A stretch of 34,207 nucleotides of DNA from a virus. The notes below the pieces were generated by a model. The model worked only from the letters and a program-made list of their open reading frames with translations. It was not told where the DNA came from and did not search any database. Positions within the stretch are counted from its first letter, which is position 1, and each line of letters opens with the position of its first letter. Location: IMG/VR virus record IMGVR_UViG_3300025889_000466, positions 1 to 34,207 of that record. The stretch is one strand, 5' to 3'. Shown piece by piece: positions 17,495-34,088 of the stretch. Position numbers and translations under genes: made by a program.

Positions 17495-18630
17495 TGGCTA
17501 ATGTCATTACAGCTAACGACGAGCTTAATAGGGTTACTGTACCCCGTCTTATTTCAGCTCCCGTTGCATGGGACCCGCAGTTTCAAGAACAGTACAGCAA
17601 TGTGCTACGTCTGTACTTTAATCAACTCAACAACATTCTAGGTCAGTTAGAGTGGAATAAGCCTATCGCTTATTTAGATTTCGATACTACTGGCACTGTT
17701 GCCCCCCATCAGACCGGGCGCTTAGATTGGGATTCTGACGACGCTACCCTTGAACTCGATATGGAGTATGGGGTTGTCCAGCAAATTGGGCAGGAGACCT
17801 ACGCTCGGGTGCAGAACAACACAGGGGTAACGATCCCCAACGGCACGGTAGTCGGTTTTGCGGGGGCGTCAGATAACGCTCTAAAGGTCGCTCCCTACCT
17901 CGCTGATGGCTCACAGCCCTCCCTGTATATCTTAGGGGTTATGACGCACGACTTGCCTGATACTGGTGAGCGCGGATACTGCACGGTTTGGGGCTTTGTT
18001 CGAGACATAAATACCAGCGCTTTCTCTCAGGGCGATATTTTGTATGCGTCTCCTACCGTGGCAGGGGCATTTACGAACGTCAAGCCGACTGCGCCAAACA
18101 ACGTGATCCCTCTTGCTGCGGTGATTAAAGTCGGTACGACGGATGGGATTATCTTTGTTCGCCCCACCATTGAGCAGCAGAAAAACTACGGCACGTTTAA
18201 TCGAGCAAGTAACTACGTTGCTGCCGCAGCAAATACTGCCTATGCGGTGCCGTTTACGTCAACGGCTGTTAGTAATGGGGTGAGCATTGGTACGCCAACC
18301 TCCCGGATCGTTGTCTCGCAGTCGGGGTACTACGACATCTCATGTACGCTGCAATACACCAGCACCAACTCTTCTCAAAAAGATGGATATACATGGATTC
18401 GCAAGAACGGGGTAGACATCCCCCAGTCGTCACGCATAACTACTCTAGCCCTTAACGGCGGGTATCGACCAGTCTTCATATCAGAGGCAATATCTCTTGC
18501 AGCGAATGACTACATTGAGATCATGTTTGCGACTACGGATACCGCTTTGAGTATAGTTGCGGCGCCTGCCACTGCGTTTGCTCCCGGCTCTCCAGCGGCA
18601 AACTTGATCGTTACACAGGTTCAGCAATGA
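17494..18630 (+). CDS. Tail fibre/receptor-binding protein with C1q-like jelly roll (378 aa)
   Basis: Begins in TAATG after the nozzle-like gene. The N-terminal part (VPRLISAPVAWDPQFQEQYS, then NVLRLYFNQLNNIL) is helical and likely the virion anchor. Residues about 100-225 form a beta-rich shaft module (ARVQNNTGVTIPNGTVVGFA, then AFSQGDILYASPTVAGAF). Residues about 237-378 look like a C1q/TNF-type jelly roll (AYAVPFTSTAVSNGVSIG, then VVSQSGYYDISCTLQY, YTWIRKNGVDIPQS, LAANDYIEIMFATTDT). Such trimeric heads are common at phage fibre tips and bind receptors. Ligand unknown. Confidence 0.75.
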   Translation: MANVITANDELNRVTVPRLISAPVAWDPQFQEQYSNVLRLYFNQLNNILGQLEWNKPIAYLDFDTTGTVAPHQTGRLDWDSDDATLELDMEYGVVQQIGQETYARVQNNTGVTIPNGTVVGFAGASDNALKVAPYLADGSQPSLYILGVMTHDLPDTGERGYCTVWGFVRDINTSAFSQGDILYASPTVAGAFTNVKPTAPNNVIPLAAVIKVGTTDGIIFVRPTIEQQKNYGTFNRASNYVAAAANTAYAVPFTSTAVSNGVSIGTPTSRIVVSQSGYYDISCTLQYTSTNSSQKDGYTWIRKNGVDIPQSSRITTLALNGGYRPVFISEAISLAANDYIEIMFATTDTALSIVAAPATAFAPGSPAANLIVTQVQQ

Positions 18631-18645
18631 CTTCCCATTTATCCC

Positions 18646-18674
18646 TTGACAGACTAAAATAAAAGCACTATGAA
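18646..18674 (+). promoter_or_regulatory. Possible sigma70-type promoter
   Basis: In the 39-base gap after the jelly-roll fibre, TTGACA (18646-18651, full consensus) and TATGAA (18669-18674) are spaced by 17 bases. The -10 box overlaps the start codon region of the 635-residue gene (ATG 18670 and 18676), so a transcript would begin near 18681, inside the coding sequence. It could serve the downstream giant genes by a later start such as ATG 18733, or be chance. Not tested. Confidence 0.35.
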
Positions 18675-20577
18675 CATGAGCCTACACCCCATTGCGGAAG
18701 CTGTTCGGTCACAAGGCCGAAACGGTGATTCCATGCTCGTTCACATGACCCCCGGCGAGGTAGCTGCGCTCCAGCGCATGGCCGAAGCAAACGGTGGGTC
18801 TCTTTCCATTAACCCCGAAACCGGTCAGCCCGAGGCGTTTTTCCTAGCCGCCTTGTTGCCAGCCCTTGCTGGCGCTGCTATGCCGAGTATCGCCGCAGCT
18901 ACTGGAATTGCTGCTTTAGCCAACCCCCTTACTTCTAGTCTGTTGATTGGTGGTTTGACAGGCGCGCTGACTGGGGATATGAAGCAAGGTCTAATGGCTG
19001 GCCTTGGCGCCTACGGTGGCTTTGGTCTTGGTGAATCTTTGACTGGTGCCGCAACGGCTGCTCCCGCCGCCGCTCAAGCTACTCAAGCTGCTAGTGTTGC
19101 TCAAGCGAATCAAGTTGCTAATGCTGCTCAGGCTGCTCAGGCTGCTCAGGCTACTCAGGCTGCTCAGGCCGCTCAGGCTACTCAAGCCGCTCAGGCTACT
19201 GCTGACCTCGCTGCCAAAACAGCCATGCCTGAAGTACAAGGCGCACTTAAACAATTAGGTCTTCCGCAGCCAGCCCTAACTGCCCCCCAAGTCGCTCCTT
19301 TCGGTACTCCTGTTCCTCCTCCCGTAGCTGCGGCTACTCCAGTTCCCCCTCCCGTTGTTGCTTCGCAGTACGCTACTCAGGCCGCTCAAGGTATTTCGCA
19401 AGTCCCACCCCCTTCAATTGCTGCTTCGCAGTACGCTACTCAGGTTCCTCCGGTTCCTCCGGTAACCGGCTTTGATCGCTTTGCCCAAGGCATTGAAACA
19501 ATGGGTCAGGGGGCTAAAAATATATACGACACCAAAGGTGGTATCGGGAAGTTCCTTGGCGAGAATATTGCTAACGTTACTATGGCTTCAGCCCCTTTGA
19601 TGGCTGCTGAAGACGGTGACATACCAAGAGACAACCTGCAGTACTACTATCCAGACTTTAAACGTCTGCCCGGTGGCGGGGTCTATTACGGTAAACGTGC
19701 AGAACGGCGTGTAGCGAAGGGGGGCAGCATCCCCGGTTATCAATATGGTGGAATCCCAGCTATGGTACCTCGTGGGGTCGAAGGCCCACAGGAGCCGCAA
19801 GAACCACAGGCTACAGCAAATCAGCGTGGTATTGCACGGGCGTTGCCGACTGCGTTAGGTCTAGCTGGAATGAATCCGCTGGGCGCTACGATTGCTGGAG
19901 TTGCAACTACATTAGCTCTTGAGCGTAATAATCCAGCATTGGCTCAAAGTATTAGTGGAGGTATCGTCCCTGCAATGATGGGCGGGTATCAAGACCCGGC
20001 ACCGGTAATCAACATGAACGACATGCGTGCAGTGTCCCCCGGTGGACCCGGACAGGCCCCTGTAATCACAAGTGGTTCTGGTGGTTCCGGTGGTTTTGCG
20101 CCTTCTAACCAAAACGACGTATCGTCTGGTGGTGGGTACGGTACGTTTGGCGATGGCGCCTCTATGGCTACTGGCGGTATTGCTTCTATGAGCTACAAAC
20201 GCGGTGGTTTGAAAGAGGACTCGTTTGTTGTCCCCGCCGACGTGCTCGCAGCTTTGGGTAACGGCAGTAATGATGCCGGGTTGATGGCCTTAAATAAGAT
20301 GTTGGCTAAAGCTGGCGCCCCACGTGCTGAGAAGATTGATGGCCCCGGGGACGGTATGAGTGACTCTATCCCCACTTCTATTGAAGGGCGTCAACCGGCT
20401 CGCGTAGCCAAAGACGAGGCTTATGTCCCAACCGAGGCAGTTCGCCGACTGGGTGGCGGCAACGTTAAGAAAGGCGCTAAGAAGCTGTATGACTTAATGG
20501 CCCGTGTGCGTAAAGCTGCTCATGGAGATGATAAGCAGCAGCGTAGGGTAAACCCCGATAAACTGGCACGTGCCTAA
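18670..20577 (+). CDS. Internal virion-like protein with Ala/Gln repeats (635 aa)
   Basis: The start is ATG 18670 or 18676; neither has a clear ribosome site. The N-terminus (SMLVHMTPGEVAALQRMAEA, then GGSLSINPETGQPEAF) is a module I recognise from virion-associated phage proteins. A Gly/Ala-rich hydrophobic stretch follows (LLPALAGAAMPSIAAATGIA). Residues about 135-178 are Ala-Gln-Ala repeats, and Pro-rich VPPP repeats with ASQYATQ come after. A GG motif (KGGSIPGYQYGG) and two related C-terminal segments (SFVVPADVLAALGNGS and EAYVPTEAVRRLGGGN) end it. It probably resides inside the capsid and may be ejected. Function unknown. Confidence 0.65.
   Translation: MNMSLHPIAEAVRSQGRNGDSMLVHMTPGEVAALQRMAEANGGSLSINPETGQPEAFFLAALLPALAGAAMPSIAAATGIAALANPLTSSLLIGGLTGALTGDMKQGLMAGLGAYGGFGLGESLTGAATAAPAAAQATQAASVAQANQVANAAQAAQAAQATQAAQAAQATQAAQATADLAAKTAMPEVQGALKQLGLPQPALTAPQVAPFGTPVPPPVAAATPVPPPVVASQYATQAAQGISQVPPPSIAASQYATQVPPVPPVTGFDRFAQGIETMGQGAKNIYDTKGGIGKFLGENIANVTMASAPLMAAEDGDIPRDNLQYYYPDFKRLPGGGVYYGKRAERRVAKGGSIPGYQYGGIPAMVPRGVEGPQEPQEPQATANQRGIARALPTALGLAGMNPLGATIAGVATTLALERNNPALAQSISGGIVPAMMGGYQDPAPVINMNDMRAVSPGGPGQAPVITSGSGGSGGFAPSNQNDVSSGGGYGTFGDGASMATGGIASMSYKRGGLKEDSFVVPADVLAALGNGSNDAGLMALNKMLAKAGAPRAEKIDGPGDGMSDSIPTSIEGRQPARVAKDEAYVPTEAVRRLGGGNVKKGAKKLYDLMARVRKAAHGDDKQQRRVNPDKLARA
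19072..19203 (+). repeat. Ala-Gln-Ala coding tandem repeat
   Basis: About fourteen GCT-CA(A/G)-GCT units (period 9 bases with variants in ACT) code for AQAAQAAQATQ-type sequence inside the 635-residue gene. The complement reads as a Ser-Leu-rich shadow frame. Such near-perfect short repeats slip easily, so copy number may vary between related phages. Confidence 0.8.
19359..19443 (+). repeat. Direct repeat, 22 bases, spaced 63 bases
   Basis: A 22-base segment at 19359-19380 recurs exactly at 19422-19443, 63 bases later, with the surrounding Pro-rich sequence also similar. It codes for ASQYATQ in both copies. It is a duplicated 21-residue unit within the 635-residue protein, not an attachment site. 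Confidence 0.75.
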
Positions 20578-20582
20578 AAAGC

Positions 20583-21041
20583 ATGCAGTATGAAGGTAAA
20601 TTAGAGTGGTTTGGGGGCAATCAAGATGCGCTCAATATGTACCGCATGTTTGTTGACCTATCGCACACATGGGACGACCTTGTTGATAAAGACAAAGACG
20701 TATCAGAAGATGCTATCAATTACGCATTTGCTATAGCCTTGGTCTATTTACCAGCAAACCCTTTCTACCAAAAAATACAAAGTCAGATACTGCCGATGTG
20801 GCTAACTGTCATAAGTGCGTATCAGACAGCAAACAAGTTTGAAAAAGAAAAAGACGAACACGGGTTAGAAATTGCACATACACTTAGATACGCCGCTGGT
20901 AACATAGTAGCGTACGCTGTTCACGTGTGTGTAGGCCAAGAAGAAGCTAAGAAGTATCTGCCCGAAGTATGGAAATCTATTGTTGTAGAGCGGTTCGACA
21001 ATTACCGCATGGAGCACACAAATGGTAATGCTTGCGAATAA
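20583..21041 (+). CDS. Helical phage protein of unknown function (152 aa)
   Basis: ATG 20583 follows the preceding stop by 5 bases without a clear ribosome site. The protein is all-helical, with several Trp and Asp residues (NQDALNMYRMFVDLSHTWDD, then LVDKDKDVSEDAINYAF, LVYLPANPFYQKIQSQILPM, YQTANKFEKEKDEHGLEIA, HTLRYAAGNIVAYAVHVCVG, LPEVWKSIVVERFDNYRMEH). I recall close relatives as hypotheticals near internal virion protein genes in environmental phages. It is small and soluble, between two very large virion-type proteins, and could be their chaperone, which is inference. Its end overlaps the next gene by 20 bases. Confidence 0.7.
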   Translation: MQYEGKLEWFGGNQDALNMYRMFVDLSHTWDDLVDKDKDVSEDAINYAFAIALVYLPANPFYQKIQSQILPMWLTVISAYQTANKFEKEKDEHGLEIAHTLRYAAGNIVAYAVHVCVGQEEAKKYLPEVWKSIVVERFDNYRMEHTNGNACE

Positions 21042-24000
21042 ATTTAACGGTTACTCTCCTGACGGTCGGCGCCTTTACAACATTGGTGGCGGTGGTGGTG
21101 GTGGGTCGTCAACTCAAGTAGTTGATGTACCTGACTGGGTAAAACCTTACGCTAAGGATGTTCTGGCAAGGTCAGCAGCAATGACAATGCCGGGGGAAGA
21201 AGGGGTTTCTGAAGCGCCAAAATACGGAGGTCAACGCGTTGCCGGGCTACAGCCTCTTGGGGTTATGGCTAAAGAAGCCGGTGCTGCTATGCGTTATTCC
21301 CCTCAATTAGACACTGCCACTAATATGGCTCAGCGAGCGGGGGAGATGGGGCTAGGTGCTGGTGAAGCCTATAACCAAATGATGTTGCCGGTTGTCCGAG
21401 ATAGATTATTTGGTGCTGGTAATGCCTATAACCAAGCCGCTGCTGGAGATATATCGTCTTTACGCGGTACTGGTGCAGCCTACGAACGAAAAGCTGCCCC
21501 AGATATATCGTCTTTACGCGGTGCTGGCGCTGCGTACGACAGGGCTTTGGCTCCTGATATTTCCACTGCCCGTGGAACTGGTGCGGATGTACAACGAAGA
21601 ATTGACCCCGCGCTTGAGGAGTCTTTGAGGGCCGGTAGAGCGTATCAAGCAATGGCTACTGACCCTAGCCAGATGGCTGCGTACATGTCTCCGTACATGC
21701 AAAATGTAGTTGACATTGAGAAACGCGAAGCGCAACGCCAAGCCGATATAGCCGCTACTGGTCGTGGTGCACAGGCTGCGCGTGCTGGAGCTTTTGGTGG
21801 TAGCCGTCAAGCAATTATGGAGGCCGAAGCCGGGCGTAATCTTCAGCAGCAGATGGCTGACATCCAAGCTCGTGGCGGTCAGCAAGCATTCCAAGCAGCG
21901 CAACAAGCGCAACAGTTTGGCTCTGAACTTGGTTTACGTGGTTTGGGACAAGGTTTGCAAGCGCAGCAAGCAGCGTCTCAGTTGGGTCTCAGCGGACTGC
22001 AACAAGCTATCCAAGCGCAACAATACGGCCAAGACTTGGGTCTTCGTGGCACTCAAGCCGCTTTGCAAGGAACTCAGTTCGGTTCCGATTTGGGTCTTCG
22101 TGGCACTCAAGCCGCTTTGCAAGGAATTCAGTTCGGTGCCGATTTGGGTCTTCGTGGTGCTCAGGCTGGGGTACAAGCTGCTCAGTTTGGTGCCGATTTG
22201 GGTCTGAGAGGCGCTCAACTGGGTTCACAAGCTGCTCAGGGTCTAGGCCAACTCGGCGCTACTCAGTTTGGTCAGCAGAAAGACATTATTGATATCCAAC
22301 GTCAACTCGGTAAAGACGAGCAAGCGCTTGAGCAGGCTCGGATGGACGTTGCGTATCAAGACTGGGTGGACGCACAAAAGTACCCGTACCAACAGCTTGG
22401 CTTCATGGCCGACATGATGCGTGGTGTGCCGGTTGGTCAAACAGCTACAACAATTGGGCCGTCAGCAAGTCCTTTATCTCAATTACTTGGCGCTGCTGGT
22501 ACAGCTTATTACGGGTCTAGTATTTTTGGTCGCGCGGCAGGCGGTTCAGTTCCCGGCTACGCTGAGGGTGGTGGCATTTCTAGCTTAAACCCCGTCCAGC
22601 GTGACGTTGCACTTGAAGGCATGGGTGACGCGCAAATGCAGGGGCTTATGGGTCTTGCTGATATTTCCCAGCTTGCCAAGCTGCAGGTAGCAGAGAAACT
22701 GCAACAGAACGCACAAATTCGTAAAGCCGCCGAAATGGCTCAGGCTGGACAACAGCCGCAACCACAAGCTACTGTGGCGGAAGAAGCCTTGATGCAGATG
22801 GGCCTTGGCGGCTTAGACGTACCCGAAGATATGGTTTCTGCCGCAGGTGGCGGCATCATGCGTTTTGCCGACGGGCCAGATAACGAAGACGAGCAAGAAG
22901 GTGTTCGGGCCAAAGAAGGTGATGTGCTGACCGAAAGCCAACGTGCGGAGTTGCAAACTCGTCCGGGCGTTAAATTTGACACAGTGCCACCTCAAACACC
23001 TACGCAAGAAATGCGGGACGAAGCCGCTTTATATAGTGCGGAAAGAGCCGGTAAAGCACCGGGGGTAGACTACGGTCGCCCAACTTATACATCGAGCGCT
23101 GCTCCTGCGTTTGTTGCCCCCTACAGCGCTGAAGACTACATGGCTATGCGGAAAGAGGCTATCGCGCCCGGTCAAGCTATGGAGATGGAAGCCCTTGCAG
23201 ACCAAGAAAGGGCAGATAGTGCGTTTATACAAAGCCTGAAAGAGGCGGAAGCAGGTCGTGAAAGAGCCGTAAAAGAGGCTGGTGAGTACGGAGTAGAACG
23301 AGAAAAGCGTGCTAAAGAACGCCTAGAAGGTATGGACAAAAAACGAGAAGATGCAAAACTCTCGTTTATCCGCGACGTTAGCGTTGGGTTACTGACTTCG
23401 CCGACTGGCAGTTTCCTTAGCGACTTAGGTATAGCTGTTGGTAAGAGCGGTAAGTCTTATGATGCCGCAATTGAGCGTATTGATAACGCTAAAGAGAAAC
23501 TCCAAGACGCAATCGACACCATCATGGACCAGCGTCGCGGCGATAAGATTACCAACGCTAAAGATAAGGCAGCAGCCGCAGGTAAACTGGCCGAAGCGCA
23601 AAAAGGTTTGGCTAATACGCTTGCCGGTAAGAAAGGTAAGCTCGGCGAAATTAGCAAAGCAGATGCTATGGATGCTGTTAAACAAGCCACAACTATCTCC
23701 ATGACAACTGCCGAACGTCAACACGCCGCTGCATTGTCTACATACGAGCAACAACAAGCTGCTGCGCGAGAAGCTGCAAGACCAGAGAGCCGCGATGTAA
23801 TGCAGGCTCGTATTACTAAGATGCTGGCTGATTCCAATCCGGCTGTTCGGGCGCGAGGCCAGATGCTGCTAAAGAACTTAGAAAAAGTAACCGAAGCGGG
23901 TACTTACAGAACAGCCCCGGGGGCTGTTACTCCAGCGGTTAACTTAAGAACGGTTGGCGGCATATACGACCAAGTGCGTGAAGAAGCGAATAAGTTGACT

Positions 24001-24240
24001 GGCCCAACCGCGAAGTTGTTGAAGGGTAAATCCCCAGTGGAAAAAGATCAGTGGATTCAAGACGAAGTCGAAAGGCGATATGATGCTTTAATGCAGAATG
24101 TTGGCGGTGCTCCTACTGGCGGCGGTGCTGGTGCTGTACCACAGCAGGCTATTGACGCTTTAAAGCAGAACCCATCCCTAGCCGCTCAATTTGATGCAAA
24201 ATATGGAGCAGGTGCCTCGGCAAAATACTTAGGGAAGTGA
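21022..24240 (+). CDS. Large internal virion-like protein with 18-residue repeats (1072 aa)
   Basis: ATG 21022 has GGAG about 7 bases upstream. The N-terminus has a polyglycine run (IGGGGGGGSS). Helical Ala/Gln repeats with 18-residue period occur at residues about 143-198 and 303-412 (LGLRGTQAALQGIQFGAD type). A motif MSPYMQNVVDIEKREAQRQA separates them. Later parts contain GG motifs (AAGGSVPGYAEGGG, then AGGGIMRFADG), a charged coiled coil (about 720-900) and a C-terminal module (LKQNPSLAAQFDAKYGAGAS). This is the build of phage internal/ejection proteins with tape-measure-like rods. It ends 1 base before the giant gene. No enzyme motif seen. Confidence 0.7.
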   Translation: MVMLANKFNGYSPDGRRLYNIGGGGGGGSSTQVVDVPDWVKPYAKDVLARSAAMTMPGEEGVSEAPKYGGQRVAGLQPLGVMAKEAGAAMRYSPQLDTATNMAQRAGEMGLGAGEAYNQMMLPVVRDRLFGAGNAYNQAAAGDISSLRGTGAAYERKAAPDISSLRGAGAAYDRALAPDISTARGTGADVQRRIDPALEESLRAGRAYQAMATDPSQMAAYMSPYMQNVVDIEKREAQRQADIAATGRGAQAARAGAFGGSRQAIMEAEAGRNLQQQMADIQARGGQQAFQAAQQAQQFGSELGLRGLGQGLQAQQAASQLGLSGLQQAIQAQQYGQDLGLRGTQAALQGTQFGSDLGLRGTQAALQGIQFGADLGLRGAQAGVQAAQFGADLGLRGAQLGSQAAQGLGQLGATQFGQQKDIIDIQRQLGKDEQALEQARMDVAYQDWVDAQKYPYQQLGFMADMMRGVPVGQTATTIGPSASPLSQLLGAAGTAYYGSSIFGRAAGGSVPGYAEGGGISSLNPVQRDVALEGMGDAQMQGLMGLADISQLAKLQVAEKLQQNAQIRKAAEMAQAGQQPQPQATVAEEALMQMGLGGLDVPEDMVSAAGGGIMRFADGPDNEDEQEGVRAKEGDVLTESQRAELQTRPGVKFDTVPPQTPTQEMRDEAALYSAERAGKAPGVDYGRPTYTSSAAPAFVAPYSAEDYMAMRKEAIAPGQAMEMEALADQERADSAFIQSLKEAEAGRERAVKEAGEYGVEREKRAKERLEGMDKKREDAKLSFIRDVSVGLLTSPTGSFLSDLGIAVGKSGKSYDAAIERIDNAKEKLQDAIDTIMDQRRGDKITNAKDKAAAAGKLAEAQKGLANTLAGKKGKLGEISKADAMDAVKQATTISMTTAERQHAAALSTYEQQQAAAREAARPESRDVMQARITKMLADSNPAVRARGQMLLKNLEKVTEAGTYRTAPGAVTPAVNLRTVGGIYDQVREEANKLTGPTAKLLKGKSPVEKDQWIQDEVERRYDALMQNVGGAPTGGGAGAVPQQAIDALKQNPSLAAQFDAKYGAGASAKYLGK
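21448..21610 (+). repeat. 54-base tandem repeat, N-terminal array
   Basis: Units starting at 21448, 21502 and 21556 (exactly 54 bases apart) each code for DISSLRGTGAAYERK-type sequence of 18 residues. The first two copies are nearly identical in bases and the third is diverged. They lie within the 1072-residue gene. Confidence 0.8.
21928..22251 (+). repeat. 54-base tandem repeat, six copies
   Basis: LGLRG- or LGLSG-coding units start at 21928, 21982, 22036, 22090, 22144 and 22198, exactly 54 bases apart; a degenerate seventh starts at 22252. The copies at 22036 and 22090 are almost identical, which points to recent duplication. Each gives 18 residues, five turns of an alpha helix, so the array should form a regular helical rod. 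Confidence 0.85.
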
Positions 24241-24241
24241 C

Positions 24242-27200
24242 ATGGCTAATTTCTTCGACCAGTTTGATGAATCGCAGGCTGGTTCAGCAGGTAACTTCTT
24301 TGACAAGTTTAATGAATCGCAGGCTGGTTTAGCGGGTAACTTCTTTGACAAGTTTGATGCGCCAGTAGAGAAAAAAGTCGCTCCAACTGCTAAACCGGGC
24401 GAAGAAGAGTTACCTTCGCAAGAGCAAGCCGACAACCAAAGTTTTTGGCGGTCTGTAATGGACGTGCCCTTGCAGTTCCAGCGTGGCGCGTTAATGATTG
24501 GTAAAGCTGGTGTAGATATTTTCGGCGCTGGGAGCGAAACGGCTAAAGCCCTTGAGCAAGCAGATACCCACATAGCTGCCCTACTAAGCGCTCAGGCTAA
24601 ACGCGATGCGGCTGAAGTCAGTCGTATTTGGGAAGACGCTAAAGACAAGGGTCTAGGCGATCAAGCACTGGCGGGTCTTGAAGCTCTTGCCGTAGCTCCT
24701 ATAGATTTGATGTCTCAAGCTCTTGGTACTGCTGTACCATCTTTGGCTGCGGGTGCGCTAGCTATAGCGTCTGGTGGCGGTGCATTACTAGCAGGTACTG
24801 CTGTTGGAGCCGTGGGTCTTGGAACCGGTATGGGCCTTATTAAAGGTGAGGTGTACGATGCAGTAGAAGCCGCGCTAAAGGAAAAGGGCGTTGCACCAGA
24901 AGAAGCTGCTGCAAAAGCAGACGCGGCTCAAAGTTACGCCGGTGAAAACCTAGATTTAATTCTTGCCGGTGGGGGTATTAACGCCCTTGCAGAACTTACA
25001 GGTCTTGGTAAGTCATTCATTCGCGGCAGGGTCGCTGCCGGTATAAAGAATACGCTGGGTAAAGAAGCCGCCGAAAGAGCCATAGCTGATACCGCTAAAG
25101 AAGAGGTTGCAAAAACAGCCGCACGGACTATGCCGGGCCAAGCAGCGCGAACCGCAGCGGTAGAGTCTCTCGGTGAAGGCGCTCAGGGTGGGTACGAACA
25201 GCTAGCTCAAAACATTGCACTGCAGCGCGAAGGATTTGATGTACCTACTATGCGAGGCGTAGTAACTTCCGGTGTGCTGGAAGCTGGTGCCGGTGCCCCT
25301 CTTGGTGCAGGTGCGGGTGCTCTTGAGGTTAGACAGGCTCGGCAGACTCTCCGAGCAATGGAAGATGCGGATATATTCAAAAAAGACATGGCTCGTGCAG
25401 AAGCTGAGCTTAAGGAACGCACCCGATTAGCTGAACTAGACAGCATCATTACCGGTAACCCTGTAATTGCTACTGATGAGCAAGGCGAAACTATCCGTGA
25501 CGAAAACGGCGTACCGGTAGTATCCGAAAGAACTTCTGGTCGAGAACTAACAGAAGAAGAGCAAACAGAGTACGACAGCCTGCGGTCTAAATTAACACCG
25601 ACAACTCCGGCACCGACAACGCCAGAAGAGCGAGAGGCTGCTGTTGAAGCTGAGTCCAATAGACTTTTAAAGTTGGGATACGAGGAAGCAGACGCCAAAG
25701 CACAAGCTCAAGCCAATATTGAGTATCAAGTCGCTGAAGACGAAGAGACTCGTAAAGATGAAGCAGCTCGTGTGTCTTCTCGTAAAGAGTTTGCCGCCCT
25801 TTACGATGAATATTTAGGCGCTGGCTATTCAGAAGAAGAAGCTACGCTACGAGCCTTAGAAACTTTAGACGACCAATTAGAAGCCGCAAAGCGTGAAGCG
25901 CAACGTGAAACAGAAACCCCCGCTGCGGATGTTACGGGTAGAGGGGTAACCCCAGAAGTTACTGCTGGGCAAGAAGTTGCTGATGTAATTGATTTAGGCG
26001 CTCCAGTGGACTTGACAGCTAACATGCCAGAAGTAGCATTAGGGCAGTTTAGTCCGGGGTCTACAGCTACCACCACTATTGAGCGCGATGGCAAAACCAC
26101 CACGACCACAATCCCTGCCAGAGCTGAACCAACTGATGTAAGCAACACAGAACTTACACGGCTTATTGAGCGTCGAATGGACGAGCGAGACGCGGCTGGT
26201 GATGGTACGCCAGAAGCTGCTGTTATTCAAAATGAAATCAATGAACTACAAGCAGAGCAACGGCGTCGTGAAGCTGGACGCCCGGTAGCACAGAAAACCA
26301 GTAAGGCTCAGCGTGATCTGTTTGAAGATGCAGGTGAAGGCGAACCTCAGCCTGATACGCAACTATCACGTACCGTAGACGACATCATTAAGTCTCTTGG
26401 CCCTGAAGCACAAGCTAGATACGAAGCAGCAACTGCAGAAGCAGAAAGACAACGTGCCGAACGTAGGGGTCGTGGTAGACCAGCGCTTACCAAAGAAGGT
26501 ACAGCGGAGCGTGCCGCACAAGAGAAAGAACGTAAGGCAGCTATTGCAGCTAACACCCGATACACAGGCATGCTTAAGCGGTTCACGGATCGGTTTAGCA
26601 AACTGTACAGAGCCGACGGTGGTCGAGAAGCGTTACTAGCCTCTGCGCTAGAAGAAGGCGGTGACAAAGCTAGCTTTGCGGTAGGCGAGTATTTAAAGAA
26701 GCTAAAGCAAAGAGAAGCTAGGTTAGTAACCGAAATGCTCTTTATGTACAACGCGATGCCTGATAGCATCCATCGTCGGCGTTTGGGGCAGCTCTTATAC
26801 ACGATCGATCCAGAAACTGGACGTAGGGATAAACCCAACCCAATAATTAGCGCGGACGTATTTAACAGAGCTGAACGTGCTTTTAAAGAAACAAGGGAAG
26901 AGGCTCGCCAAGCAGCGGCTGAAAAGCGAACAACCGCTATCTTAAATAAAGCCAGAAGCAATGCAAAGAAAGAAGCGGCTGGTAAAGACCGACAAGTAGC
27001 TACTATTAACGGTGACTTTAACAACGTCACTACAGTAAAAGGCGCGCTTAAGATTGTTGGGAAAACGGGCACTCCGTTTATGCGACTGCTGGCGAAGCGT
27101 ATCTCCAACGCTGTCGGCGATGCCAAATTTGTTGTTGTAGAGCGTGGCGATAAACTACCCGAAGCCCTTGAAAAAGACTCCAGTGCTGTCGGTATAACAG

Positions 27201-30200
27201 CTATAGAGAAAGACGCCGCTGGCAAGTTAAAGGTCACGGTTTATGTGCGTGGCGCTACTTGGGGTGAACGCTCTCAAGGCATCAACAACATAATCGTCTT
27301 ACACGAGGCTTTACATGCCGCGTTGGATAAAAAAGTTTGGGGTATAAAGCAAGCCGCAACTCTTGGTCTTACTATCACTAAAGCAGAGCGTGATTTCTAC
27401 AACGACATAGCGACGTTGATGGTCGAAGCCCGGGATAGATTTGTTGACATGGCTGCTGCCGATATGCGTAGCACTAGCCAAGACCCGGTCCAAACTGGTA
27501 ATCGGCTTTTATACAAAGCGTTGGCAGAAGTAGTGGCAGGTGCTAACGGTGCAATGTTTAACGACCCGCAAGAGTTTATAGCTTATGCACTTAGCGAGCC
27601 GGTGTTTGAAAACTTCTTGAACACCTTTAAACCTGCTCGTTCAAACCGCAGCGCTTACGGTAAGTTTGTTGACTTGGTGCGTAACTTGTTTAAGTTCGCA
27701 GAAAACCAAACCACTGCTTTTACAGAGTTGGTTTCTGCCATAGATGCTGGCATTAGTACTCCGTCTTCTAGAGGTGTTGTGCAAGCTCTGCAACAGTCTT
27801 TGCTGTCTCCGTCCGCCGCTAAGCGCTCAATAAAGACTAAAACCGACATGAAGAATCTTGTCAAGGAGCAAGATCGTGTGGCTAAAGGTTACGAAGAGAG
27901 CGAAAGCGCTACTAAGATCAACGACAGCATTAAAGAAAGCATAGATCTACGCAGCGGGAAAGCTGCTGTTGAAACTTTACAGACTGCGTATGCTACGGCG
28001 ACTGATAAGGGCAGAAGAAACTTAGCCAAGGTTCTCACTTTGGATTTGCTGGCTGAGATAGCCCAGCGCATGGGGCTCAAGTCTGTTGCAGACGGCGCGG
28101 CTGTAGTTCGCAAAATGAACTCTATGGCTGACAACATTTTGTTGGGCGCTCAGGAAACTCTGGACAACACGTTTAGAACTTTCCAAGGCAGGCCAAAGGC
28201 TATGTCTGCGTTTACAAGGCTAGCTCTAAACGCTACCTTGCTGAACATAGACCCGGCTACAGATGTTTCTAGCCCAATGCTAAACAAGCTGTACGCTGCG
28301 CTGGACGAAAAAGGTAAACGCGAGTACATCCGCATGCGGGATTATTTCCAAGGCATGACCCAGATGTACACCCGCTTCTTGGATGATCGAGTCAAGGGTT
28401 TGAGCCTTTCAAAGCAGGACCAAGAAAACGTTCTTGAAAAAATAAAGGCGATGTACGAGACGGGCGACAAGATTTATCCGTTCTTCCCGCTGAAGCGTTT
28501 CGGTGATTACTGGATTCGGATCGGTACAGGTAAGAACCGTAAGTTTTATACGTTCGAGTCAGAGTTTGCCCGCAACCAAGCTATAAAAGATTTTGCTAAG
28601 GAGAGTAAGAAAAGTGCGGACGAGTTTCTGGAGCAAAAAGACGTAAAGATTGGCAATAAGCTGGGTGATCTACGCGGTGAGTTGTTTGGCGACAATATGG
28701 CCAAGACGCTGCAAGAGGTGTTTAATGCCATAGATGGGATGGATATAACCGACGCCGACGCTAAAACCAAGTTAAAAGACGACGTTTACCAGACGTACTT
28801 GGCAACGCTGCCCGATCAAAGTATCCGTAGGCAGTTCCTACACCGTGAAGGTATTACCGGCTACTCAACAGATTTCTTACGCAGTTTTGTGGAAGCTGCA
28901 ACGCACAACGCTTTCCAACTGTCACGTATCAAGTACGGCCCAGAACTGCGACGCGCTGCTTCGGCTGGAAGAACGGCTGCTGGTAACGACATCGCGCTGC
29001 AGGTACTGGCTGAAGAGTTTGACAACCGCACCGACTACAACCTGAATACGTTTAACGAAAGCCCCGAGCAGAAGTTTCTGCGTCAGACAGTTTCGTTCTT
29101 AAACCAGAGCTCGTTCATCTACTACTTAAGCGCGATTGCTTCCCCCATGCTGCAGATGTTCCAGCTTGGCATTACCGGCTTCAATACGCTGGGTGCTAAC
29201 TACGGGTTTGCCAAAGCCACGGCGGAAATATCTAAGCTGGCAAAGGTTTGGAATCAGTACAGTGTGTTCAAGAAGAACGCCGACGGTTCCGTTACTATGA
29301 CTGCACCTACTCTTGCGCGTAGCAAGGCGGTTCAGATGAACGCTCGTGAGCGCAACGCTATGGAGAAACTGCTTCGTCATGACGTTATTAGAGTTACGTT
29401 GGCAGCAGAAATAACCGAACTTAGCAAACTACCGTCAAAGTCTTTAGAAGGTTCGTTTTCTCAGTCGGCTAAACAAATTGTTCAGATTCCGGGTAAGTTG
29501 ATGCAGGCAACGGAGCAGCTAGCTCGTGAAATGTTGGCGCTCACTGCTTATCGTTTGGCGTATAAAAAGCACGGTAACCACGAGACTGCTATTGAAGAAG
29601 CTGCATATCATGTAGCCGACGCTATGGGTAACTACGCTGCATACAACCGACCCCCTTTCATGCGCGGTCCGTTGGGCGGCTTGATGTTCCAGTTCATGAT
29701 GTTCCCAGTGCAGATGACTGGCTGGTTCGTCAAAAACTTCGCTCGGTCTATCCCGTTCTTAAAAGCTAACAAAGAAGGCAAGATGCTTGCGTTCAAACTC
29801 TGGGCGTCGTCTATGGCTTCGCTGTGGGTTGTTGCAGGTACTGCAGGCTTACCGTTCGGTCTCGGCACCATGATGCTGGGTGTTTTAAACCGACTGTTTG
29901 ACGAAGCTAAGGACGACGATGATTTCCCCGAAGAGTACAAAGACATGGACTTTGACTTCTATGTCCGTAAGATTTGGCTACCTTCGCAGGTTGGGCACAT
30001 AAAGATCAACGACGTGCCATTGGACATGATTATTGACTACGGGCCTTTGTCCGCACTTAGCGGTGTTGATTTCTCGTCTCGTCTTAGTATGAGCGGCATG
30101 TTTATACGCGAGAACAAAACAGAATCTACGTTAGAAGCTGAATGGCAGAATGCTTTAATTGATCGTATGGGCCCAGCGGTCAACATGATTACAAGTTTTG

Positions 30201-30715
30201 TTAAGGGTCTCGATGCTTTGCGTGTCGGCGACGTGCAAAAATTTGGGGAGAAAATAGCCCCCGCTGCTTTACGTGCCCCTATGTACGCAGAGAAATACTC
30301 TAGGCAAGGTATTGTTGACTGGGAGGGTACTGTGCTTACTCCAGCCGATCAAGTAGAGCTTGGGAAACTTTTGGCTCAAGCAATTGGTTTCCGTCCGTTG
30401 GAGTTGACGGAGCAAGGGTACAGAACTTTTACTCAGCGGGCTATCGAGCAAGCCATCCAATACGAGAAGAATCGTATCTATACGAAGTTATACAGAGCGT
30501 ATGTAGCCGACGATATGAAAGAGTTCGACCGCATCCTTGACGAAGAAGTAGAGAAGTTTAACGAGAAGCATAAGTCTTTCCCGATTGAAAGCGATGACAT
30601 CGAACGGTCACTCCAGAAACGTCTTGAGCAACGCGAAATCAAGCAAGATACTGGTGGTTTCAACCTAAACGAACGGAATGCTCCTTTGGTTTTCCCACTA
30701 ATACGTGAGGAATAA
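24242..30715 (+). CDS. Giant polyvalent virion/ejection protein with zincin motif (2157 aa)
   Basis: The largest gene in the window. N-terminus: three copies of a 15-residue NFFDxFDESQAGxAG unit. Residues about 160-205 are hydrophobic and Gly-rich, and about 450-560 are acidic coiled coil. RRGRGRP at 741-747 resembles an AT-hook. A zincin-type HEALH lies at 1021-1025, with E1111 (QEFIAYALSEP) a likely third ligand. Hydrophobic patches lie near 1626-1655, 1812-1835 and 1849-1886. The C-terminal 350 residues (FMRGPLGGLMFQFMMFPVQM, then MIIDYGPLSALSGVDFSSR) resemble a 'large polyvalent protein-associated domain' (LPD38 type). Such proteins are packaged, injected and act early on the host, by family knowledge. 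Protease activity is inferred from the motif. Confidence 0.7.
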   Translation: MANFFDQFDESQAGSAGNFFDKFNESQAGLAGNFFDKFDAPVEKKVAPTAKPGEEELPSQEQADNQSFWRSVMDVPLQFQRGALMIGKAGVDIFGAGSETAKALEQADTHIAALLSAQAKRDAAEVSRIWEDAKDKGLGDQALAGLEALAVAPIDLMSQALGTAVPSLAAGALAIASGGGALLAGTAVGAVGLGTGMGLIKGEVYDAVEAALKEKGVAPEEAAAKADAAQSYAGENLDLILAGGGINALAELTGLGKSFIRGRVAAGIKNTLGKEAAERAIADTAKEEVAKTAARTMPGQAARTAAVESLGEGAQGGYEQLAQNIALQREGFDVPTMRGVVTSGVLEAGAGAPLGAGAGALEVRQARQTLRAMEDADIFKKDMARAEAELKERTRLAELDSIITGNPVIATDEQGETIRDENGVPVVSERTSGRELTEEEQTEYDSLRSKLTPTTPAPTTPEEREAAVEAESNRLLKLGYEEADAKAQAQANIEYQVAEDEETRKDEAARVSSRKEFAALYDEYLGAGYSEEEATLRALETLDDQLEAAKREAQRETETPAADVTGRGVTPEVTAGQEVADVIDLGAPVDLTANMPEVALGQFSPGSTATTTIERDGKTTTTTIPARAEPTDVSNTELTRLIERRMDERDAAGDGTPEAAVIQNEINELQAEQRRREAGRPVAQKTSKAQRDLFEDAGEGEPQPDTQLSRTVDDIIKSLGPEAQARYEAATAEAERQRAERRGRGRPALTKEGTAERAAQEKERKAAIAANTRYTGMLKRFTDRFSKLYRADGGREALLASALEEGGDKASFAVGEYLKKLKQREARLVTEMLFMYNAMPDSIHRRRLGQLLYTIDPETGRRDKPNPIISADVFNRAERAFKETREEARQAAAEKRTTAILNKARSNAKKEAAGKDRQVATINGDFNNVTTVKGALKIVGKTGTPFMRLLAKRISNAVGDAKFVVVERGDKLPEALEKDSSAVGITAIEKDAAGKLKVTVYVRGATWGERSQGINNIIVLHEALHAALDKKVWGIKQAATLGLTITKAERDFYNDIATLMVEARDRFVDMAAADMRSTSQDPVQTGNRLLYKALAEVVAGANGAMFNDPQEFIAYALSEPVFENFLNTFKPARSNRSAYGKFVDLVRNLFKFAENQTTAFTELVSAIDAGISTPSSRGVVQALQQSLLSPSAAKRSIKTKTDMKNLVKEQDRVAKGYEESESATKINDSIKESIDLRSGKAAVETLQTAYATATDKGRRNLAKVLTLDLLAEIAQRMGLKSVADGAAVVRKMNSMADNILLGAQETLDNTFRTFQGRPKAMSAFTRLALNATLLNIDPATDVSSPMLNKLYAALDEKGKREYIRMRDYFQGMTQMYTRFLDDRVKGLSLSKQDQENVLEKIKAMYETGDKIYPFFPLKRFGDYWIRIGTGKNRKFYTFESEFARNQAIKDFAKESKKSADEFLEQKDVKIGNKLGDLRGELFGDNMAKTLQEVFNAIDGMDITDADAKTKLKDDVYQTYLATLPDQSIRRQFLHREGITGYSTDFLRSFVEAATHNAFQLSRIKYGPELRRAASAGRTAAGNDIALQVLAEEFDNRTDYNLNTFNESPEQKFLRQTVSFLNQSSFIYYLSAIASPMLQMFQLGITGFNTLGANYGFAKATAEISKLAKVWNQYSVFKKNADGSVTMTAPTLARSKAVQMNARERNAMEKLLRHDVIRVTLAAEITELSKLPSKSLEGSFSQSAKQIVQIPGKLMQATEQLAREMLALTAYRLAYKKHGNHETAIEEAAYHVADAMGNYAAYNRPPFMRGPLGGLMFQFMMFPVQMTGWFVKNFARSIPFLKANKEGKMLAFKLWASSMASLWVVAGTAGLPFGLGTMMLGVLNRLFDEAKDDDDFPEEYKDMDFDFYVRKIWLPSQVGHIKINDVPLDMIIDYGPLSALSGVDFSSRLSMSGMFIRENKTESTLEAEWQNALIDRMGPAVNMITSFVKGLDALRVGDVQKFGEKIAPAALRAPMYAEKYSRQGIVDWEGTVLTPADQVELGKLLAQAIGFRPLELTEQGYRTFTQRAIEQAIQYEKNRIYTKLYRAYVADDMKEFDRILDEEVEKFNEKHKSFPIESDDIERSLQKRLEQREIKQDTGGFNLNERNAPLVFPLIREE
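24248..24358 (+). repeat. 45-base tandem repeat coding FFDxFD units
   Basis: Units begin at 24248, 24293 and 24338, exactly 45 bases apart. Each codes for NFF-D-(Q/K)-F-(D/N)-E-S-Q-A-G and the third is cut after FFDKFD. They form the N-terminus of the 2157-residue protein and look like short linear binding motifs (aromatic plus acidic). Confidence 0.85.
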
Positions 30716-30811: not shown

Positions 30812-31006
30812 TCACTCGCGCCATACACGTAACCCCTTTACGCCATCATTTATAACGACTTTTGATACCACATTTAGCCCTAGTCTTTTTGTAACACGGG
30901 CTATTTGTTTTCGAGCGGCGGCATCATCTATGCAGGGTACAAAAAAAGATGTGCCTTTATGAAACTTGGCCCAGTTAATCCTGTACGTCACTGTCTCGAT
31001 TTTCAT
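30812..31006 (-). CDS. Small basic protein downstream of primase-helicase (64 aa)
   Basis: The likely start is the ATG complementary to 31004-31006 (MKIETVTYRINWAKFHKGTS), overlapping the end of the primase-helicase gene by 32 bases, with GGAAG just upstream. The longer reading from 31081 would overlap too deeply. The protein has a beta-alpha look (SFFVPCIDDAAARKQIARVT, then VVSKVVINDGVKGLRVWRE) with a basic helix. I do not recognise a named family. Translational coupling with the primase-helicase suggests a replication accessory, which is inference. The terminator lies about 75 bases after its stop. Confidence 0.65.
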   Translation of the reverse strand: MKIETVTYRINWAKFHKGTSFFVPCIDDAAARKQIARVTKRLGLNVVSKVVINDGVKGLRVWRE

Positions 31007-33806
31007 CTTCCAGCGCCCCAATCTGCAAGTAATCCGATCCTGATGCGTCAAACAGCAGTGCACGTACTGGGGGTAGCACAACTTTCAACCCTTTAGCCAT
31101 GCGTTTGTTGACTGCTTCTTTGAACACCCCAATCTTGCCCAGCTCTCTGAGCGAGTCTTTATAGTTGATCTGGAACTTGACGCAGTACTCTTTGTAGTGC
31201 TTCGCTGATATGTACAAGTGTTTGGTATCCGGCTCATATCGCACCACAAGTTCACCCCTTGGCTCCATAGTCGGCATCGCAGGCATGTTACTCCGTGCAT
31301 CAGCCTCGTCGTTAACCACCAAAGAGTTGTTGATGTAGTTACCCATGAACTCACCCAGCACCGTCAGTGGGGATGCCTCTGGCGGTTTGATCTCTTCGCG
31401 CATACCAGACAACATGCCAAGCATCCAGTTGTAAATCCGGGCTATGTCCCAGTTTATGAGGCCCAAGTTCTTGGCAATCAGCGCCCCTGCAATGTTGCAA
31501 GCGCATACTGCCGACCAGAACCGCTCACGGGATGTGAACTTTACTTCTCTGTCAATACGAGCTTGAACGTTACGTACTAGCTCCACGCACGATTCGAGGT
31601 TATCCACCAAGTATTTAGCGTATATGTCACCCGCATGCCCATAGTTCTCAAACAACTGATGGTCAAACATGCTCTTACCAGTAGCCAAGTCAATGACAGT
31701 GCTGGGTTTGATTTCGTACTCCAACAACCGCATGGACTCACCGTCGGGCGTATCTTTCAGGGCACCCAGCTTTTGGTAAAAGCTAGCGTTAGCCGACGCC
31801 AAAGTAATTGCGTTCCACGTTGTATTGTTGATCCGCATCTCATTGGACTGCGCCTTCATACGGTTCTTGCCACGTCCCTGCGACAGGCTGTAAGCCAAGT
31901 CAGAGAACTCCATAGCCGACGTGTTTGTAATTTCGTCTACGGTGTTAGGTAGATTGTTGAGTACGCCTAGCCTGTGGATTTTTGATGCGGGTGTGTCTTT
32001 CCAGATCGATGCCAGCTTCTTCGGGTTGCCCCAAATGCTGTTGCACATGTACAGCGTGGTTGATTTGCCTGACCCTGATGACTTGTGTATGACGTTTATA
32101 ATCGCACCACTCATACCAGTAAACTTGAGCAGGGGTGACCCAAACCCAGTCATTGCGGCGAAAGCGTTTGGCTCTAGCCCTTCTAAACCGTACAGGTTAA
32201 ATACTTCTTTCCACTTCTCCAACGTGCCTACGGGTTGGCACATCTCCGCCTCTTCTCTAGTAACGCTAGACGGTGGGCTGTAGAAGATACCGTCTTTAGT
32301 TATCTCCCGGTCACCGACAATAAACTTACTGTCTTTCTCGACCCAACCAAATTGTGTTCTCATTTGTTCTGCTCTTTGTGTCTCTTGTAGGTTGTTTACG
32401 CATGTGGCCAAGTACATGAAAATTAAATCTTGTCGCTTTGTACCGACCACAATCCCGTGATACCCGAGCGCATCTCGCAGTTTGTCTTTGGCCATGAGGT
32501 GCGACAACGGTACGGTAAACTCCTTGACCCCATCGCGGGGCATGTGCACCCTCAACAGAGCTGTCTCGCCGTAGTTGACATCGTTCATGCGCTTAACTAC
32601 ATACATGTCTCGCTCGTAGACAAGCGCTGGTGCCGCCTCAGAATCTTGCGGTGGGCGCAGGTAAACACCCCCAGTTAGTCCACGAAAGTACGGCTCTGGG
32701 TATGCCGGTATCTTGAACGTTTCAATCTCACCGTTTTCGTCTTCGACTTCAACTTCGTCGTCGTCAGGGTCGGCTTCGGCTATTTCTGTGCCTAGCAAGA
32801 TAGGTGTACTGATGCGTCCTTTGTTAGGACAGCCTTCGCACCCACTTGGGTTCAAACTCTCAAACGTACTGCACAGGTACGGGCCTTTTGTCTCGGCTGC
32901 TTTTTCTTCTGTCTGCTCGGGGTCATACCCTTCGTGCTTAGACGACATCTTGTGGATGGCATCTTCTCGATCAACGCATCGCTCTGCAATAGATAACGCG
33001 GCTCGCCACAACGGCTCTTCAATCGAGTTCTGGTTCTTGTAGCAGTGCAATAGTTGATTACAGCCGTCACCATTGACTGACCGCAACATGATTGTTTTAA
33101 ACCGCTTAACCTTGTTGCCCATCATGGACTCCATGAGTGGACTCATTCGGCGCGGAATAAATTCCTCTTCCTCCGGCGGGTCTGCTTTTAGCAGGTCTTT
33201 TATTTCTTCGTAGGTGTAAGGCTCGGTAGCGTGGAACAGTACGCTTACAGGCAGGGGCTCCGCTTTAAAGTTAAACGTGCCCGGTACCCGCAAGATACGC
33301 GATGCTTCAAAGACTGCTGGGTCAACGATCAACCCATGCTGTCTGCACAAATCCTTGAGCGCTTTGGCTAGGGGTTTCCAAGACTTTTGGTTAATCGTCT
33401 CAGTTAGCAACCAATAGACATGGATGCCGTTGCCTGAGTTTACGATTATGGGTCGGCGCAAACCGACTGTTTTACAAAACTTTTGGAATTCAACTAACCC
33501 AGTAGCTTGATCTATGTAGCCTTTGATGACGCCGTTTTCGTCGGGCTCGGCTTTGCTAGGACCGCAGTCGATGTCCATCCATAGTGCTTTGAAGTACTTG
33601 GCGTTCTCATGCTTGCGGTTGTCTAACTCGCCGTATTTGGCGCACCCAAAGAAAACGTTATCTCGCTTGGCTAGCAGAGATTGAATTTGTTCCTCGGCCT
33701 CTTCCCGAGTTGAAGCGAAGCGCTGGTCTACGTACCGGCCTATGCCCACGAGGCAGTACCTACCCTCTTCGGGCAGTACTGCGTCAAGTAAGTCAAAGTC
33801 GGCCAT
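30975..33806 (-). CDS. Primase-helicase fusion (943 aa)
   Basis: The ATG at 33806 (MADFDLLDAVLPEEG) is preferred to the TTG 36 bases upstream. N-terminal archaeo-eukaryotic-type primase (RepB_primase-like): catalytic MDID at 77-80, SGNGIHVYW at 124-132 and SRILRVPGTFNFK at 169-181. A small Cys cluster (C312, C323, C326) follows, then an acidic linker. The helicase half resembles DUF927-type P-loop ATPases: Walker A HKSSGSGKST at 574-583, Walker B TVDE with D624/E625 and a likely arginine finger near R693. It would prime and unwind DNA at the phage fork. The 64-residue gene follows, overlapping by 32 bases; the HTH gene precedes it by 45 bases. Confidence 0.8.
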   Translation of the reverse strand: MADFDLLDAVLPEEGRYCLVGIGRYVDQRFASTREEAEEQIQSLLAKRDNVFFGCAKYGELDNRKHENAKYFKALWMDIDCGPSKAEPDENGVIKGYIDQATGLVEFQKFCKTVGLRRPIIVNSGNGIHVYWLLTETINQKSWKPLAKALKDLCRQHGLIVDPAVFEASRILRVPGTFNFKAEPLPVSVLFHATEPYTYEEIKDLLKADPPEEEEFIPRRMSPLMESMMGNKVKRFKTIMLRSVNGDGCNQLLHCYKNQNSIEEPLWRAALSIAERCVDREDAIHKMSSKHEGYDPEQTEEKAAETKGPYLCSTFESLNPSGCEGCPNKGRISTPILLGTEIAEADPDDDEVEVEDENGEIETFKIPAYPEPYFRGLTGGVYLRPPQDSEAAPALVYERDMYVVKRMNDVNYGETALLRVHMPRDGVKEFTVPLSHLMAKDKLRDALGYHGIVVGTKRQDLIFMYLATCVNNLQETQRAEQMRTQFGWVEKDSKFIVGDREITKDGIFYSPPSSVTREEAEMCQPVGTLEKWKEVFNLYGLEGLEPNAFAAMTGFGSPLLKFTGMSGAIINVIHKSSGSGKSTTLYMCNSIWGNPKKLASIWKDTPASKIHRLGVLNNLPNTVDEITNTSAMEFSDLAYSLSQGRGKNRMKAQSNEMRINNTTWNAITLASANASFYQKLGALKDTPDGESMRLLEYEIKPSTVIDLATGKSMFDHQLFENYGHAGDIYAKYLVDNLESCVELVRNVQARIDREVKFTSRERFWSAVCACNIAGALIAKNLGLINWDIARIYNWMLGMLSGMREEIKPPEASPLTVLGEFMGNYINNSLVVNDEADARSNMPAMPTMEPRGELVVRYEPDTKHLYISAKHYKEYCVKFQINYKDSLRELGKIGVFKEAVNKRMAKGLKVVLPPVRALLFDASGSDYLQIGALEDENRDSDVQD

Positions 33807-33826
33807 AATTTGAAGACAGTTACCCC

Positions 33827-33842
33827 TTGGTCTTGCGACCAA
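33827..33842. promoter_or_regulatory. Perfect 16-base palindrome before the primase-helicase
   Basis: TTGGTC (33827-33832), four spacer bases and GACCAA (33837-33842) form a perfect dyad in the 45-base gap between the HTH gene and the primase-helicase start. As DNA it has the size of an operator for a small HTH dimer. As leftward RNA it folds into a stem with a GCAA tetraloop, extendable by two G-U and one C-G pair, that takes in the only SD-like AAGGGG. On the + strand five T follow, so a rightward terminator is another reading. Confidence 0.45.
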
Positions 33843-33851
33843 AAGTTTTTG

Positions 33852-34088
33852 TTAAGTACGTTTGAGTTTTGCTAGTAAGCGTTCTATTTCGGCACTGCGC
33901 TTACGGTCGGGGGCTCGCAACCCCCAAAACCAGTTGTAAATCGTAGCGCGAGTTACACCCAGTTTATCCGCAAGTTCAGACACCGAAATATTCTGCTTAA
34001 TGCACACTCGACCAAGGGCAACACCCAACGATTTCCCATCAGCTTTTTTGTTAGCTTCAATAAGCCGTTGACTGTAGCCGTAACTCAT
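33852..34088 (-). CDS. Cro/CI-type helix-turn-helix DNA-binding protein (78 aa)
   Basis: The start is the ATG complementary to 34086-34088, one base after the stop of the upstream gene. A helix-turn-helix lies at about 34-56 (ISVSELADKLGVTRATIYNW), of the Cro/CI or MerR-like small type. The N-terminal 30 residues form a helical leader (YSQRLIEANKKADGKSLGVA) and the C-terminus is a short basic helix (EIERLLAKLKRT). It has the size of a dimeric phage regulator. It may act on the palindrome just downstream, or be a replication-initiation helper. It lies between a replication-type gene and the primase-helicase. Confidence 0.75.
   Translation of the reverse strand: MSYGYSQRLIEANKKADGKSLGVALGRVCIKQNISVSELADKLGVTRATIYNWFWGLRAPDRKRSAEIERLLAKLKRT

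Follow-up and report, generated by a model that had tools for sequence, protein, structure and literature searches.

The stretch of viral DNA analyzed here (IMG/VR record IMGVR_UViG_3300025889_000466, linear, 34,207 nucleotides; below 'the window', probably a fragment) encodes a giant protein of 2157 residues and, directly upstream of it, an Ala/Gln-rich protein at the position that gp20 holds in phage P22. The giant begins with a short repeated peptide (the tag) and the upstream protein ends with another short peptide (the tail). We found that such tags and tails co-vary across unrelated protein bodies and are exchanged together, with sharp boundaries. Tag and tail are therefore quite likely cognate docking elements that link two ejection proteins, the giant being the member at the gp16 position. 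The features concerned are:

21022-24240, plus strand: upstream protein at the P22 gp20 position, Ala/Gln-rich, 1072 residues, bearing the tail and lying directly upstream of the giant
24136-24237, plus strand: predicted C-terminal docking tail of type a, VPQQAIDALKQNPSLAAQFDAKYGAGASAKYLGK, the last 34 residues of the upstream protein
24242-30715, plus strand: giant PLxRFG polyvalent-type protein, 2157 residues (open frame; NF032893)
24242-24361, plus strand: predicted N-terminal docking tag, residues 1-40, with three NFFD[QK]F repeats (sequence; table of tags and tails)

The NFFD[QK]F peptide, which was overlooked in the initial annotation of this DNA although no other part of the giant is as informative, is present in three tandem copies within residues 3-38, at a spacing of 15 residues. 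The giants on the nearest related contigs, L004 and L005, share 81% and 78% identity with it over the rest of the protein and start with other, unrelated tandem repeats (MPYSLTTPSGQVINDIPDDVP.. twice, and ..DPDFLNANEATKAAIF../..DPDFANANEATQEAIR..). At the nucleotide level the identity between the giant and its L004 relative is 0.24-0.58 at first and climbs to 0.91 at around residue 57. The upstream protein gave no family match in the libraries searched. Its homologs precede the giants of L004 and L005 and are 58-59% identical over the aligned parts; the last ~50 residues are absent from these counterparts. The same ~50-residue tail recurs in several contigs with the NFFDQFD tag, where the upstream proteins otherwise show no more than partial similarity or are dissimilar. 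The pairing in the window is thus that of an NFFDxF tag with the tail AIDALKQNPSLAAQFDAKYGAGASAKYLGK.

The exact sequence MANFFDQFD was recovered from 63 viral contigs, where it is attached to a dozen unrelated bodies, one of which is 52% identical to gp16 of P22. Within each tagged record, searched as a whole, exact FFDQFD occurred in one to three copies (mostly two), close together and in a single gene, and on this ground we rejected the idea that the tag is a signal borne by more than one protein of the same phage. The tag is encoded by many synonymous spellings, and these point to selection on the protein. In L038, L052, L085 and L091 (gp16-type or transglycosylase-like) two FFDQFD-type copies flank an inserted (cargo) domain.

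Two collections were gathered on basis of the bodies and not of the tags, namely 80 gp16-type loci and 80 PLxRFG loci (the best 80 of 422). Exactly one of four tag types was present in 77 of the 80 gp16-type loci, and the ~45 complete N-termini among the best 80 PLxRFG loci carried around fourteen types, many in two to three tandem copies. Types A, B and D are common to both families, and type F was found on L004 and on the gp16-type L140. An hhalign comparison among types B, C, D and F detected no homology. In L210 a transglycosylase-like region comes first and NPFAQIE follows twice.

Comparison of all tails with all tags yielded a near one-to-one table of 128 dereplicated pairs, in which the types were named via hand-written patterns after inspection. 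The pairs include:

tag NFFDQFD with tail NPSLxxQFDAKYGxGA
tag DPNYVNANEATK with tail VDxNNPLLK
tag WKDVIASxxYQAL with tail SSLWGD
tag NGKTFNFPDGTS with tail SKSGIQFTVE
tag LADGRILEFPDGTD, a relative of NGKTFNFPDGTS, with tail LQFDAQGNL
tag LPDGFVLD with tail TATNPKTGQ
tag GRDLSAELF with tail ALKAKGYTIK
tags FTSFTPIEE and KFVPLSE with tail GKGTEVLKDGKVIGYA
tag IYEYQGKQYD with tail NPIKI
tag VTVTFGDGSSHIY with tail TVSNW

The type a tail matched the NFFDQFD tag in 43 of 43 dereplicated tagged cases (L050 in corrected frame). In a type-free analysis of 5475 (non-independent) pairs of contigs with no detectable relation between the bodies on either side, 591 shared both elements, 158 the tag only and 36 the tail only; 1000 permutations gave a mean of 133 and a maximum of 226 for the number sharing both. 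Where the flanking bodies are unrelated, the tag type predicts the tail type.

One of the pairs occurs in both orientations. A scan for the module TATNPxTGxxxxxxGGxW recovered 54 distinct cases in which it forms a C-terminal tail; the next gene was readable in 51 of them, and all 51 start with PxGFx[LIV]D, which is mostly present twice. Seven cases instead have the module at the N-terminus of the downstream protein, with PxGFxLD at the end of the upstream protein in six of the seven. At other loci 6 out of 993 open reading frames had a PxGFx[LIV]D-type peptide within their first 90 residues; as all six belong to these same pairs, the count outside them is 0 out of 987 N-termini. For pairs A, C and D no inversion was found when we looked for one. 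A linked DNA cassette whose products do not interact does not predict that one pair occurs either way round.

The exchange is also apparent among named phages. The SKSGI[KQ]FTVE/FP[DE]GTS pair is found in P22 and SPN9CC, and the SSLWGD/WKDVIAS pair in Sf6, L, HK620, CUS-3 and SI5. Between P22 and SI5 the bodies of gp20 and gp16 are 96% and 73% identical, with 20% identity for the tail and 12% for the tag; between L and SPN9CC the bodies are 95% (gp20) and 91% (gp16) identical, the tail 12% and the tag 22%. Published hybrids bear on this. P22 carrying only gene 16 or only gene 20 of Sf6 formed no plaques, the two Sf6 genes were functional jointly, as was Sf6 gp7 alone, and the virions of non-functional hybrids still contained Sf6 gp16, from which the authors inferred a required interaction between gp16 and gp20 (PMC10883804). 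Matched tag/tail pairs would give that interaction an address and would account for the behaviour of the hybrids. The idea that the tag is a fixed capsid address is weakened by the same data, as P22 hybrids package foreign gp16 (PMC10883804); that P22 tolerates the other pair type if both of its proteins are exchanged speaks against it too.

In the mechanism that we propose, the giant would be an ejection protein, encoded by the last gene of the ejection-protein run, and its NFFD[QK]F repeats would bind the tail (..NPSLAAQFDAKYGAGA..) at the C-terminus of the directly upstream gene product. The giant and this partner at the gp20 position would be joined in the capsid and/or during assembly of the DNA conduit in the cell envelope, where the tandem arrangement of the tags perhaps raises avidity. 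At least ten cognate, mutually exclusive pair types would be swapped as a small cassette among unrelated ejection proteins of gp16-type and PLxRFG families, and a zincin domain in the giant could cut the giant's own chain or its partner after attachment.

As to its body, the giant adds one more member to an already known family. The frame called in the initial annotation is intact, with an ATG start, 2157 residues and no internal stop, and contains the following further features:

24383-25369, plus strand: N-terminal domain, residues 48-376, with a hydrophobic stretch at 160-200 (homology, hydropathy)
27011-27754, plus strand: zincin-like domain, around residues 924-1171 (invariant residues, predicted model)
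27302-27316, plus strand: HEALH, residues 1021-1025, motif within the zincin-like domain
27572-27574, plus strand: E1111, candidate third ligand, invariant in aligned relatives
28478-30670, plus strand: PLxRFG C-terminal domain, residues 1413-2143 (NF032893)

Residues 1413-2143 match the NCBIfam model NF032893 ('PLxRFG domain') with 314 bits and an E-value of 1.7e-93, the curated cut-off being 100 bits; the PLKRFG motif itself is found at residues 1416-1421. A PHROGs search likewise matched the C-terminal 730 residues to DarB-like giants, at their C-termini. The C-terminus had been said to resemble LPD38, an identity that we discarded, given that the Pfam search with LPD38 (PF18857) produced no match at E<=10 and NF032893 was recovered instead; Pfam LPD38 does match the related protein L010. 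A C-terminal model of low confidence (predicted local distance difference test, pLDDT, 59) had structural matches mainly with large polyvalent-type phage proteins. No family in the libraries searched matched residues 1-1330, and sequence searches of the PDB with the giant, the upstream protein and gp16 of HK620 returned no useful match. The domain at residues 48-376 is around 35-43% identical to that of other giants with differing C-termini. The AT-hook-like motif RRGRGRP is indeed present (26462-26482, residues 741-747), unchanged in L005 and as the variant KGRRGRP in L004. The hydrophobic patches that had been reported were recovered as well (Kyte-Doolittle, 19-residue windows), but a membrane-active C-terminus was not borne out, as the strongest patch is N-terminal (residues 173-200, 1.66) and the C-terminal one (residues 1848-1881) reaches at most 1.54. 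The number of enzyme-type domains that could be named in the giant by family searches was one.

The zincin-type site proposed earlier found support. H1021, E1022, H1025, A1026 and E1111 are invariant in an alignment with eight relatives of 18-81% identity. Of 80 sequences from the wider family (some truncated), 59 match the zincin region; among those that align at the respective positions, all 57 have the H/E/H triad and all 58 have E1111. In the predicted model of the region (mean pLDDT 62) three strands precede the HExxH helix, and E1111 sits on a helix further on, which is the right order for a zincin. Structural comparison placed zincin peptidases among the top rows, but with Z below 5, so that the support for the fold comes more from sequence than from structure; Foldseek gave no match below 1e-3, and no Pfam model matches the zincin-like region of the giant. 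A zincin-like core is thus predicted with modest confidence, and the conservation supports a putative zincin-type metallopeptidase site with E1111 as third ligand. The polyvalent-protein metallopeptidase (MPTase) domains described by Iyer et al. (2017; PMC5512222), comprising 12 published clades, likewise have an HExxH helix, a glutamate on a later helix and a three-strand sheet; the domain of the giant differs in that no Pfam model recognizes it. For MPTase-type domains these authors suggested processing of the own large protein first, with host targets as a further possibility, and the domain studied here probably acts as a zinc peptidase on the giant or on a partner protein. Many relatives of ~2900 residues (L233-L254 and similar) hold a second HExxH (HELAH/HEMAH) at around residues 1700-2150, the first being near residue 1000.

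The initial annotation inferred that the phage injects a protease-bearing effector; on such a view the giant would chiefly be a protease that acts on host targets. The invariant HExxH+E site is in line with this, as is the notion that polyvalent proteins are injected effectors (PMC5512222). Nevertheless, we consider it unlikely as the chief role: it leaves the tags, the tails and the gene position unexplained, the zincin region went unmatched in 21 of the 80 PLxRFG relatives (some truncated) and HExxH is missing from some that are complete, whereas the tag/tail pair is general, and Iyer et al. rank self-processing first. An effector role would be compatible with docking as a second function.

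Still a little less probable is linkage only, in which the 3' end of the upstream gene travels with the 5' start of its downstream neighbour as a recombination cassette and the encoded peptides do not interact. The genes are adjacent or overlapping (gap of -15 to +13 nucleotides in most) and the exchange boundaries are sharp, as such a cassette would have it. However, the TATNPxTG/PxGFxLD pair exists in two orientations, the matching persists between very diverged phages with unrelated bodies, and gp16 and gp20 of P22 and Sf6 function only when matched (PMC10883804). Binding of tail and tag each to a common type-specific third partner (portal, scaffold, other virion or host envelope protein) would presumably result in matched types as well, but is very improbable, considering that the Sf6 16+20 hybrid works with P22 gp7 and other structural proteins retained (PMC10883804).

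Several points weigh against docking as we propose it. Direct binding of tag and tail, and its place and timing, are inferences. Packaging of the giant into the virion and its ejection we infer from the tags shared with gp16-type proteins, the gene position and the presence of a PLxRFG relative, JC1 gp69, in virions (51 peptides by mass spectrometry; PMC9144972), which together also lend support to the earlier claim of a phage-delivered protein. Tail and tag genes were adjacent in all cases examined, and linkage aids any co-variation. The P22 and Sf6 proteins also differ in their bodies, so that an effect of tag and tail by themselves cannot be read from the hybrids. Since the contig-pair counts are non-independent and the type A contigs were partly gathered via the tag, a tail-first scan of eight bacterial genome records was added, in which N[FPI]FD[QR]FD repeats were present close to the start of the downstream gene in 7 of 8 cases. 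Finally, there are two misfits: L403, with a type a tail and a next gene, as picked, without FDQFD tag, and L375, with a TATNPxTG start and an upstream frame, as picked, without PxGF tail.

The closest known systems include gp20/gp16 of P22 (PHROG 770, 'DNA transfer protein'): pair types A, B and D are shared, the gene is the last of the ejection run and the neighbour relation is the same. The body of the giant differs, lacking detectable homology to gp16 and carrying zincin and PLxRFG domains. PHROG 770 did not match the giant, and its N-terminal domain was discarded as a P22 gp16 homolog (hhalign against gp16-type proteins, E 0.16). PLxRFG/DarB-like giants of Bcep22-like phages (Bcep22, JC1, LASTA, Skulduggery) have the C-terminal 730 residues in common with the giant of the window; the giants of LASTA, Skulduggery and PEp14 are longer and do not have such a tag first, but an apparent transglycosylase-like start (read by eye).

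Elsewhere in the window, the minus strand encodes a DUF927 primase/helicase-like protein of 955 residues (30975-33842) and a helix-turn-helix regulator (33852-34088). Both genes are 94-98% identical to the L004/L005 contigs over the matched part, and the identity drops stepwise toward the upstream structural genes. The C-terminal segment of the 18670-20577 product (residues 545-632) is shared at ~45-53% with several contigs whose bodies gave no match, and may be another exchangeable module. The neighbouring genes 9988-11196 and 11193-12917 encode short-repeat proteins of the TIASTGNxxDFGDL and SLSTAWDxxTASYVQ types. The C-terminal domain of BclA, of the kind seen in trimeric fibre tips, is weakly matched by residues 235-354 of the 17494-18630 product (22.8 bits; the cut-off is 38).

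The nearest functional analogues of the proposed pair code are a contact in T7 and the docking domains of polyketide synthases. In T7 the inner-membrane ejection protein uses its N-terminal part to contact the tube protein, which is bound through its C-terminal part (gp15-gp16; PMC8954989), as proposed here for tag and tail. Exchangeable tag types are not described there. The docking domains of modular polyketide synthases are short C- and N-terminal elements of matched types that order large proteins. The comparison concerns arrangement, and here we deal with a virion machine, tandem tags and one pair in both orientations. FFDQFD, QFDAKYG, TATNPKTG, LPPGFVLD, LPEGFVLD, SSLWGD and NNPLLK were not found in the literature searched, which was mostly open-access, and within it the pair code is undescribed; an earlier description is possible, and earlier work on mosaicism of genes 16 and 20 is cited in PMC10883804. 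Taken more broadly, it appears somewhat probable that short-tailed phages and prophages have in common a general address code, made up of ten or more and perhaps fourteen tail/tag pairs, by which consecutive ejection proteins are linked. Such a code would allow unrelated cargo, such as wall hydrolases, gp16-type channel proteins and giant polyvalent proteins, to be attached to one and the same delivery machine, and would render hybrids between phages non-functional when a code word is changed.

Ejection proteins are essential, little understood and among the most variable parts of the virion. A matched code, if true, would explain why gp16 of P22 and Sf6 works only with its own gp20, and the recognition between gp16 and gp20 is now directly testable through swaps of ~40 residues. 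It would also make the compatibility of ejection proteins readable from sequence, mark unknown giants as virion cargo and provide a simple genetic handle on the attachment of cargo to the delivery machine.

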